This document shows positions 5,468 through 14,830 of a stretch of DNA of 22,187 nucleotides, one piece after another. Position numbers and translations under genes: made by a program. Positions within the stretch are counted from its first letter, which is position 1; every line of letters begins with the position of its first letter. The notes under the pieces were generated by a model that saw only the letters and a program-made list of their open reading frames with translations, did no database searches and had not been told where the DNA came from. The stretch is from a virus: the IMG/VR virus record IMGVR_UViG_3300036398_000824, positions 1-22,187 of that record. One strand, given 5' to 3'.

Positions 5468-7006
5468 TTAAACTTCTAATAATGAATTTAACTTGTTGTC
5501 ATCAAAATCTTCTTGGCTTGTTTGGTCTGGTGCATCGTGTTCTAGTTCAAATAAAGCATTAAACATTGTATTAGAATTTTTGGTTTTTTTACCTTTAAAT
5601 CCACGAGTACCTACAACATCCATCCAATAACGATCATAATGTTCAATAATTGATTCAGATTCTCTACGGTCAGAAGTTGCAAAAATTGCATCCACTATGT
5701 CTCTAAATTTGGCATGATCACCGTTTGAGTTCCATAACATGTTTGGCCATTTGCCATTATCATATTCACGATTGGCACGTTGTACTGCTTCAATGTGTGT
5801 CCAAACATTGTGACCCATTAGTAACATATAACTAAAACTATCCCAACTGGTCTTACCTTCTTTACCATTTTTGTTTAAGTCACCAGGCTTGTACACACAG
5901 ACATCTTTCATAGCAATGTTTTTAGATATAGGACTTTCATCAAATACTTTAATTAATCCATCTGCTAGAACTGCCTGACCAAAAGGTCTAGTGTCTGTGG
6001 AATACTTTTTATCATCTACAATAGGACTCATGCGATAACACCATTTACCATCGTGTGGCAAATCAATGTGATGATATACTTGACCATTAGCTGTTGCTAA
6101 AAACGGACTAGCACAATCAAAGCTAATTGTAAAATTAGGATTTATGTAACGACGCACGGCTCTTTGAATATCAGTGAGAAGTAGTGCCCATTCTAATTTG
6201 CTTGTACCTAAAAAATGCATCCAGTCATGCACACCTTCTTGTAATAGATTATCATGTCTAAGGGCAACCAACCGTTTAAGAACAAGATGAACATCGCACA
6301 TGTTTTGTCCACCCATTGCCCAACCATTAAAATGCGTATCTGGATACTTTACAGGATCGCAATAATCCTTCATCATCTGATACCATTCTTCTGCATGAGT
6401 ATGATTACCGCCTTGTAGTACGTTTAAGAACTTGGTGCCGCCGTTCTTGATACCTTTACGGTGTTTCATAAAGTATTCGTTATTATAGTGTGTGGCTTTG
6501 ACTGCTTCGTCTAGTGTGCTGATGCCAGACTTCCACCCATTCTTTTCATTGATAACAAAACTTGGAATATCCAATGTCATTGCATAATCAGCAATGCCAT
6601 CTAGCCATGCTAATGCTTGTTCACGTTTCTTCTGTGCTTTCGGACAACCTGAACCTGCACGCCAATCTCCATCCCATACACCTTTAGCAATCTGGAAACC
6701 ACCAGAGTCGCCTAGCATGATGGTACCTGGTTCGCGTTTACGAACCATATCTTCACTAGCGTCATCTTTAGACAAATCTAAGTTTGCGTGTCCGCCTGAG
6801 TAAAGACTCCACCGATAGGGGAAGAGGGCCTTTTGGCTGTTGAGCCAATTGAATTGCTCCATGTCTTGCAGCGCCTGTGGCATACGAGCAAGGTCAACAT
6901 AGTCATTGTTAACACGTTGTTTTCCTATAAAAGTTGCGTAAAAGCCAGATATAGCAGGTAAGAACACCGCATAATCATTTTGCTTTGCTGTTAAATTATC
7001 TTGCAT
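5468..7006 (-). CDS. DpdA-like / tRNA-guanine transglycosylase-like DNA 7-deazaguanine transglycosylase
   Basis: A 512-residue protein of the TGT superfamily. Visible signatures are GDSGGFQ (99-105, the TGT hallmark), TLDIP with Asp146 where TGTs carry a catalytic Asp, VLQGG (196-200), GWAMGGQ (228-234), FLGTS (265-269) and SFDCASPF with Asp297 where TGTs carry the covalent nucleophile. The classical CxCxxC zinc site of bacterial TGT is not evident, as expected for phage DpdA-type enzymes. DpdA enzymes replace guanine in DNA by preQ0 or derivatives, which protects phage DNA from host nucleases. At 512 residues it is longer than bacterial TGT, with a C-terminal extension of about 180 residues. 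It starts 3 nt after the sulfotransferase-like gene, with no clear Shine-Dalgarno, so translational coupling is likely. A tRNA substrate is less likely but not excluded. Confidence 0.75.
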   Translation of the reverse strand: MQDNLTAKQNDYAVFLPAISGFYATFIGKQRVNNDYVDLARMPQALQDMEQFNWLNSQKALFPYRWSLYSGGHANLDLSKDDASEDMVRKREPGTIMLGDSGGFQIAKGVWDGDWRAGSGCPKAQKKREQALAWLDGIADYAMTLDIPSFVINEKNGWKSGISTLDEAVKATHYNNEYFMKHRKGIKNGGTKFLNVLQGGNHTHAEEWYQMMKDYCDPVKYPDTHFNGWAMGGQNMCDVHLVLKRLVALRHDNLLQEGVHDWMHFLGTSKLEWALLLTDIQRAVRRYINPNFTISFDCASPFLATANGQVYHHIDLPHDGKWCYRMSPIVDDKKYSTDTRPFGQAVLADGLIKVFDESPISKNIAMKDVCVYKPGDLNKNGKEGKTSWDSFSYMLLMGHNVWTHIEAVQRANREYDNGKWPNMLWNSNGDHAKFRDIVDAIFATSDRRESESIIEHYDRYWMDVVGTRGFKGKKTKNSNTMFNALFELEHDAPDQTSQEDFDDNKLNSLLEV

Positions 7007-13683: not shown

Positions 13684-13700
13684 GTGATATTTGCTCACTT

Positions 13701-13809
13701 TAATCAGTTTCGGGCACGACTCCGAGTTAGATAGCGCAGCAGCCGCGCACACCGGTCCTAAGGGTGTTCTATTGCACTAAAGAAACTCCACACTATCATG
13801 TATGGTATT
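13701..13809 (-). ncRNA. Candidate structured RNA (GC-rich, possible pseudoknot)
   Basis: The gap between the alpha/beta hydrolase stop and the dsbA promoter is GC-rich and full of complementary segments, unlike its AT-rich flanks. On the minus strand GATAGTG (13797-13791) can pair with CGCTATC (13736-13730), seven pairs with one G-U. AGTTTC (13787-13782) can pair with GAAACT (13711-13706). The two interleave, as in a pseudoknot. A local hairpin ACACC/GGTGT (13767-13763 with 13753-13749) lies between. No family is recognised, and strand and transcription are inferred only from neighbouring genes. It could also be a 3' untranslated element of the hydrolase message or a DNA-level site. Confidence 0.4.
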
Positions 13810-14388
13810 TCACCTAACATCTGCTATCCTTTTTTTGATGATTTCAATCACTTTATCATTGAGTACAACTTCATAATGATTACATTCCAGCTCAATTAAT
13901 TCCATTATGTCTCCGCGATGACTTTGACTGGCAATAGTAACCACACCATCATTTGGCGCAGATATCCAGGGTGCTGATCCGGTTGTAGTAACTATGTTGG
14001 CCCAGGGGCGATGCAGATCAAACGAGTGTGCTTTTTTCATAGCCCATGAATTGGGACCTATATCTTTAAGTAATCTGCTGTACGGTAAGAAATATTTTGC
14101 AACATCTGCAGATTCAGCACCACCGTATGGTGTGCTCAATGTAACTGCTCCTAACACCTGATCAGGAAATTCCTGTGCTAAATGTAGTGCATAGATGCCA
14201 CCTAGACTGTGACAAATAAAAAACATGTCTTTCTGAGCCAACAACAGCTCTTTCATGTTCTCTAAATTTTTTTCAAAGCCATTCCTACTGTCGTAGTTAA
14301 TTAGCAGTTCTTTGCCTTTTATTTGTTTACGGATATAATTGAAACTTTCACTGGTGGCACTGGCACCGTGAATATAAACTAACAACAT
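13810..14388 (-). CDS. Alpha/beta hydrolase (lipase/esterase-like)
   Basis: A 192-residue single-domain alpha/beta hydrolase. Strand 1 leads to the oxyanion turn YIHGAS (5-10). The nucleophile elbow is CHSLGG with Ser61. The acid is probably Asp147 in APNDGVV and the base His171 in ECNHYEV. The triad is complete in order and spacing, so it should be an active serine hydrolase. STPYGG (85-90) and the compact size recall lipase or PGAP1-like enzymes. There is no signal peptide, so it would act in the cytoplasm or be released at lysis. It follows the Dps-like gene by 7 nt with no strong Shine-Dalgarno. A substrate cannot be inferred. Confidence 0.8.
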   Translation of the reverse strand: MLLVYIHGASATSESFNYIRKQIKGKELLINYDSRNGFEKNLENMKELLLAQKDMFFICHSLGGIYALHLAQEFPDQVLGAVTLSTPYGGAESADVAKYFLPYSRLLKDIGPNSWAMKKAHSFDLHRPWANIVTTTGSAPWISAPNDGVVTIASQSHRGDIMELIELECNHYEVVLNDKVIEIIKKRIADVR

Positions 14389-14395
14389 GATAAAC

Positions 14396-14830
14396 TTATT
14401 TAAGCGTTGCTCTCAACATCCAAGAATGTTTTGCATGCGCATCTTGTCTGCTAGCTAGGAAATCACTTAGCCCATGTAGGCCTAGTTCTTCGGCCGCTCT
14501 AAAAACTATACGAAACATTTCTTCCATGCGTTCACTGTCTTGAAGTAATTCTGCTAACATTGCTTCAGCTGGTAATATTTCTAACTCGTCATCAATTTGA
14601 CTTAACATGCTAAATCTTGCGAATGATCCGGGAGTGTATGTTCCAGTGGCGCGAATTTCCTCTGCAAACTTGTCTATGCTGCCATATACTTCTTCGTAGA
14701 TGTTGGCAAACAGTTCGTGATATTGAGGAAAGTTAGGGCCTTCCACATTCCAATGAAAATAGTGAGCTTTTAAATAAAAAGTGTATTCACTAGCAAATGC
14801 AATTTTTAAAGCCTTTTGTAAAGATTCCAT
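14396..14830 (-). CDS. Dps-like ferritin
   Basis: A 144-residue four-helix protein of the Dps/ferritin-like family. The signature AHYFHWNVEGPNFPQYHELF is followed by YGSIDKFAEEI. The ferroxidase ligands of Dps (His26, His38, Asp53, Glu57 by position) are all present, so iron oxidation is plausible. Dps proteins form 12-subunit shells that store iron, remove peroxide and sometimes bind DNA. The protein is shorter than typical bacterial Dps (about 165) and lacks a lysine-rich N-terminal DNA-binding tail. The start at 14830 gives the expected family N-terminus. A GATAAATA motif ends only 5 nt before the ATG. Confidence 0.85.
   Translation of the reverse strand: MESLQKALKIAFASEYTFYLKAHYFHWNVEGPNFPQYHELFANIYEEVYGSIDKFAEEIRATGTYTPGSFARFSMLSQIDDELEILPAEAMLAELLQDSERMEEMFRIVFRAAEELGLHGLSDFLASRQDAHAKHSWMLRATLK

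Follow-up and report, generated by a model that had tools for sequence, protein, structure and literature searches.

Several described systems resemble, each in part, the phage RNA element that we report here. PNA and antisense oligomers directed against rRNA sites such as helix 69 are, like the loops of this element, short antisense sequences to the same kind of sites, but they are synthetic, whereas the phage sequences are loops of a natural conserved RNA; according to Kulik 2017, as cited in PMC7038079, a PNA oligomer that targets helix 69 inhibits the growth of E. coli. TURBS, the termination-reinitiation elements known from caliciviruses and influenza B, resemble it in being viral RNA beside a stop codon with complementarity to rRNA. 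However, TURBS are eukaryotic, lie upstream of the stop codon, involve a single 18S site and belong to a fixed gene pair, whereas the phage element matches several sites in 16S and 23S rRNA, is present in one copy per contig and lies beside variable genes. Bacterial 3'UTR-derived small RNAs are similar in that they follow a stop codon, have no room for a promoter of their own and contain hairpins, but they mostly target mRNAs, unlike the rRNA target that we propose for the phage element, and we know of no 3'UTR-derived small RNA directed at rRNA. Conserved structured RNAs of phages and metagenomes listed in Rfam, for example GOLLD, ROOL and HEARO, likewise came from comparative genomics; they are large, and none of them matches the phage element. 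In the open-access literature, we found no precedent for a phage RNA that is antisense to rRNA.

The element lies in a gap on the minus strand of IMGVR_UViG_3300036398_000824, whose 22,187 nt are the whole stretch of DNA analyzed here and are called the window below. Upstream of the gap is an alpha/beta-hydrolase-like gene (14388-13810) with weak Pfam matches below the cut-off, and downstream is a dsbA-like gene of 86 aa (13629-13369). The dsbA-like protein matches PHROG 12534 and, weakly, PHROGs 639 and 254, which are regulators of transcription or late promoters, and its homologue in phage MIJ3 is annotated as DsbA. A sigma70-like dsbA promoter, TTGTAT-17-TATAAT, was read from the sequence at 13683-13655 on the minus strand, just 3' of the RNA element, and the same arrangement can be read in relatives L010 and L028. 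Thus, a sequence-only reading of this DNA had correctly placed the element upstream of the dsbA promoter rather than in the dsbA leader. The contrast that it drew between a GC-rich gap and AT-rich flanks holds for the immediate flanks (0.475 at 13700-13819 versus about 0.28-0.33), but not for the interior of the hydrolase gene, where GC content reaches 0.50 (13900-14059). Elsewhere on the minus strand, the window encodes a Dps/ferritin-like protein at 14396-14830, and the protein encoded at 5468-7006 contains a tRNA-guanine-transglycosylase-like stretch, MLGDSGGFQ, that was spotted by eye. The latter protein, which has no Pfam match at 1e-3, is possibly the product of a DpdA-like 7-deazaguanine DNA-modification gene.

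Searches with the dsbA-like and hydrolase proteins produced 108 related loci. When the gap was aligned to these, its 3' part (13769-13693) proved to be strongly conserved at both matching and non-matching genome positions. A covariance model matches this part of the minus strand with 66 bits (E 7e-15) as a structured RNA with the order P1-P2-P3-tail and a length of about 75 nt, with relatives reaching approximately 95-100 nt. P1 (ACACC/GGTGT, 13767-13749) holds a 9-nt loop, CTTAGGACC (13762-13754), and P2 (GCGC/GCGC, 13748-13734) holds the loop GGCTGCT (13744-13738). P3 (13732-13703) consists of ATC/GAT and an inner stem, TCGG/CCGA, with the loop AGTCGTGC (13721-13714), which is of the loop 3 type GGAGTCGTGCC. 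P1, P2 and P3 all covary in the family. The 3' tail, AAGTGAGC (13700-13693), is nearly invariant across the family and does not vary in alignments A1, A2 and A3. In the structural alignment, the corresponding parts are a P1 loop CUUAGGACC, a P2 loop GGCUGCU, the P3 apical loop and a tail AAGUGAGC, and the inner P3 stem UCGG/CCGA is swapped for UUGG/CCAA in relative L050. Among the 23 distinct rows of alignment A2, 99.4% of the pair cells are standard and both sides have changed in 8 of the 14 pairs; covariation is 0.499, whereas shuffles give 0.188 (0/500) and slid controls no more than 0.09. The type A alignment, with the loop 3-closing stem included, is 95.4% paired and has a covariation of 0.626 compared with 0.166 for shuffles (0/500). 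These compensatory changes, which exceed those of shuffled and slid controls, prove that the three hairpins are real. Across the family, the stems vary freely and the loops are nearly invariant.

The conserved structure is not the one that the sequence-only reading had described, which was a pair of stems interleaved as a-b-a'-b' with an extra hairpin between them. The minus strand does contain the complementary segments, a (GATAGTG, 13797-13791) with a' (CGCTATC, 13736-13730) and b (AGTTTC, 13787-13782) with b' (GAAACT, 13711-13706), and the extra hairpin, ACACC...GGTGT at 13767-13749, is P1 of the conserved RNA, but the pseudoknot is not conserved in relatives. Arms a and b are carried by the remnant of an ORF, 20 codons long (MLGEIPYMIVWSFFSAIEHP, 13820-13758, minus strand), that stops at the UAG of loop 1. 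In most relatives this ORF is intact at 59-64 codons. Its first 45-50 nt, with a and b, correspond to the 5' part of the gap in the window (13809 to approximately 13771), and the RNA element lies some 140 nt or more beyond them. BLASTN of relatives shows about 140 nt of extra sequence, indicating that this much has been lost from the copy in the window. Segments a' and b', for their part, are used family-wide for other, covarying stems. Since its 5' arms sit in a decayed gene remnant, we rejected the a/b pseudoknot as chance pairing. Compensatory changes are abundant among the homologues and leave an RNA standing, but they fall in helices other than the a/b stems. The small protein of relatives (59-64 aa, MLGEIPYMIVWGFFSAMGWM..., for example at approximately 2172-2365 of L010), which is truncated in the window, is possibly membrane-bound and has no PHROG match. 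As for a chance fold in a GC-rich gap, or a DNA site, as an account of the whole element, the minus-strand fold of the gap taken as a single sequence does not outperform that of shuffled sequence (z -0.90, with 37 of 200 shuffles as good), but strong covariation and loop invariance over hundreds of phage contigs make this account negligible. The covariation refutes a chance fold for the conserved part, and the chance account applies only to the a/b stems.

Searches against known RNA classes gave no family for the element. The Rfam check that had been proposed for the gap yielded no family above the gathering threshold; at these thresholds, Rfam 15 had no hits in the window, in L125 or in 20 loci related to the window. 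Scans of the window gap and eight diverse loci by E-value returned only sub-threshold chance matches and no ribozyme match. The plus strand resembles a D-arm plus anticodon arm, but a tRNA-like reading was rejected on the negative ARAGORN result, which was 0 tRNA or tmRNA genes in the window and in the scanned related loci. No intrinsic terminator (GC hairpin plus T run) could be read after the element in the window.

Pattern scans of IMG/VR on the loops raised the family to at least 274 distinct members on very different contigs of up to 353 kb. In searches of whole records, exactly one copy was present in 11 of 17, whereas two large contigs among the relatives and four large phages with sequenced genomes had none. 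The whole records of Phosso, Atu_ph07, MIJ3 and SCTP-2, jumbo phages with a dsbA homologue, lack the element. The RNA family was not found among 50,697 phage records, no isolate phage with the element came to light, and a DNA similarity search of phage records with the element returned nothing meaningful. One Polyangia match (L189) was judged to be due to chance and is a ribosome-binding site adjoining a gene start. Among the 274 matches listed, loop 3 is UCGCUAC in 156 and a close variant of it in 9 (165 with CGCUAC), GAGUCGUG, the type of the window, in 96, CGCCAUUC in 5 including L008, GGGAAUCC in 3 and something else in 5. Loop 1 is extended in many relatives and there carries a hairpin within it, CCUUAGGACC-GGUACUNGUUACC being one example. 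Relative L008, which is close to the window and likewise lacks the small ORF, has a loop 3 of the type ACGCCAUUC and not GGAGUCGUGCC, and by this comparison the third loop appears to be exchangeable as a module. L222, L229 and L315 share the same P3 and have different P1 modules, suggesting module exchange through recombination. The element of the window is one member of this undescribed family of structured RNAs, which hundreds of phage contigs carry.

Comparison of the loops with the rRNAs of E. coli rrnB revealed a common feature that the sequence-only reading had missed. Loop 1, (C)CUUAGGACCG, is antisense to 23S 1920-1930 with an exact match; the corresponding segment of the window, CCUUAGGACCG, is the exact antisense of these 11 positions in E. 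coli, and in relatives the exact match covers at least 1920-1928 and as many as 13 nt (1919-1931). Positions 1920-1930 belong to helix 69 to 71. For loop 2, the loop plus its closing pair, CGGCUGCUG, is the exact antisense of 16S 519-527, the 530 loop, in every distinct sequence shown. A match of loop 2 to 23S 1902-1910 (9/9, with two G-U pairs) was disfavoured, given that the 16S match is exact and that no variant with C was observed. In its commonest form, UUCGCUAC, loop 3 is antisense to 23S 1931-1938, a domain IV site that adjoins the loop 1 site; its CGCUAC core is antisense to 1931-1936. The rarer forms ACGCCAUUC and CGCCAUUC are antisense to 1968-1976 and 1968-1975, respectively, such that the three 23S target sites all lie inside 1920-1976. 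Loop 3 of the window (AGUCGUGC) and the tail have no exact match in E. coli rRNA, and this loop matches 16S 337-342 / 331-342 or 23S 1964-1971 only in part. All four of the loop motifs tested are antisense to rRNA and none is sense, and none of 3000 dinucleotide-shuffled rRNAs contained more than two of the four motifs (product of single chances, 6e-7). The loops are therefore complementary to rRNA beyond chance.

Some care is needed in reading loop invariance. Because exact patterns for loops 1-3 were used to collect members, the later counts of invariance are partly circular, and only the protein-homology set, loop 3 when it was left unqueried, and unselected blocks are free of this circularity. 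The rRNA matches of loops 1 and 2 were seen in nearly all distinct sequences of the protein-homology set, for which no loop selection was made, and loop 3 was left out of the pattern query that revealed its rRNA-antisense forms. When loop 1 was left unqueried, the variants CCUUAGGGCC and CCUUGGGACC were still able to pair with rRNA through G-U and other variants were not; given this mixture of wobble and mismatch, loop 1 variants are neutral evidence. Outside the Proteobacteria, the target strings are present in 22/57 and 23/57 assemblies of the phylum of Polyangia G022, the rest of which may lack assembled rRNA operons. No sense partner was found within the phage, as CGGTCCTAAGG is present at most once in each of 12 large phage contigs, so the partner would be host rRNA.

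The rRNA complementarity leaves the choice of strand to be made, because the plus strand has rRNA-sense loops by definition. A functional plus strand could be an rRNA mimic, comprising a mini helix 69 and 530 loop, that acts as a decoy for an rRNA-binding factor or an rRNA-cutting toxin, and decoys are a natural use of mimicry. However, G-U outnumbers A-C in the stems on the coding strand, at 28:8 in P1, 16:0 in P2 and 37:10 in P3. This excess favours the coding strand for every stem, with P2 as the clearest case, and the element is on the same strand as the upstream gene; we therefore consider a decoy highly improbable. The G-U counts point to the minus strand of the window, which runs in the direction of the genes, as the likeliest functional RNA. 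Such a one-sided excess of G-U also disfavours the earlier suggestion of a DNA site.

An RNA with covarying stems and invariant loops need not pair with rRNA, since protein-binding RNAs and ribozymes show this pattern too. The loops could instead be a surface for binding a protein or ligand, or a catalytic core, making the element, for example, an RNA that binds a phage protein, a new ribozyme or an aptamer, with rRNA matches that are coincidental. Such an account would suit the loop 3 type and tail of the window, which have no rRNA match. For type A, RNAalifold suggests a pairing of UUCGCU with AGUGAG that involves the tail and would also suit it, but we rejected this pairing because its pairs never covary, whereas the loop-closing P3 hairpin does. 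Coincidence also fits poorly with four loop motifs that match rRNA, all in the antisense direction under the shuffle control, and with the clustering of three 23S sites in 1920-1976. On balance, we regard the binding-surface account as unlikely.

The position of the element between genes is also informative. Of the 218 non-redundant upstream contexts listed, 121 have the stop codon of the co-directional gene between -8 and +6 nt relative to P1, and in 50 the UAG of loop 1 serves as that stop; it is 7-20 nt away in 20 and further away in 27. P1 is therefore partly coding in 50 of these contexts, as it is in the truncated ORF of the window. The upstream genes are very diverse and the downstream gene varies; in 210 of the 218 contexts listed, a possible start in the same direction follows no more than 200 nt on, mostly at 10-80 nt. 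A terminator-like hairpin lies within 90 nt downstream in 4 of the 218, and in 3 of these it is 27-29 nt past the tail. In L304, such a hairpin (GCCCCTTTCGGGGC plus T run) closely follows the AAGUGAGC tail, which would place the element near the 3' end of a transcript. Given that a promoter follows the element in dsbA contexts and that its neighbours vary, it is probably transcribed from upstream and is not the leader of one gene. A riboswitch or cis-regulator in a dsbA 5' leader was rejected on the same grounds, the promoter lying after the element and the downstream gene not being constant. The earlier suggestion of an independent small RNA or a 3' element of the hydrolase message agrees with this placement.

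Adjacency to stop codons raises the possibility of action in cis, in which the element would capture the terminating ribosome through pairing with rRNA and restart translation at the next gene, much as TURBS do with 18S rRNA. The stop at the 5' edge of P1 or within loop 1 in 171 of the 218 contexts listed, together with the possible downstream start in 210, would fit such a mechanism. It would not, however, be expected of an element that occurs singly on its contig, between arbitrary gene pairs and with no fixed downstream ORF, that is followed by a separate promoter in dsbA contexts, and that has a terminator-like hairpin downstream in four listed contexts. Tight packing of phage genes alone may account for the stop adjacency, and we judge restart in cis to be improbable. 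Variable neighbours, a single copy and persistence instead fit a trans-acting RNA.

We propose that the element is a trans-acting anti-rRNA phage RNA whose loops pair with host rRNA, most likely blocking or remodelling ribosomes or their assembly, and we assign this reading a probability of roughly 60%. Three hairpins hold up loops that are complementary to functional rRNA sites conserved universally among bacteria, loop 1 to 23S helix 69-71, loop 2 to the 16S 530 loop and, in most relatives, loop 3 to a further 23S domain IV site. The RNA would be transcribed together with the upstream operon, probably processed, and would act in trans through loop-loop or bulge pairing with host rRNA in the region of decoding and the subunit interface, the likeliest consequence being interference with host ribosomes or ribosome assembly. 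We infer rRNA pairing as the function from the sequence pattern, as an RNA that pairs with rRNA is expected to have stems that vary and loops that are fixed and are exact complements of functional sites. Action in trans is suggested by the presence of one copy per contig, in the 11 contigs with a match, beside very different genes. In the established structure of the ribosome, the decoding center and the subunit interface are where the 530 loop and helix 69-71 face. Part of the helix 69 target is base-paired within the ribosome, so pairing by loop 1 would need strand invasion or unfolded rRNA. Inhibition as the direction of the effect is a guess; an RNA that blocked every ribosome would harm the phage too, and a helpful role is conceivable instead, such as holding ribosomes for the phage or shielding rRNA from a host nuclease. 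With slightly less than even chances, we extend the proposal to a picture in which large phages known only from uncultivated sources carry a modular antisense RNA of natural origin, two or three loops of which would dock on the host 530 loop and helix 69-71, with the third being swappable, so as to take over or switch off ribosomes.

Without the link to rRNA, the element is still an undescribed RNA family on hundreds of phage contigs. If the link is true, it would be, to our knowledge, the first known natural RNA with which a virus targets the rRNA responsible for catalysis and decoding in bacterial ribosomes, pairing directly with sites that hardly differ between bacteria. The question of whether phages act on ribosomal RNA becomes directly testable. 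A positive answer would mean that phages control translation at a new level and would provide natural designs for rRNA-directed antisense antibacterials.
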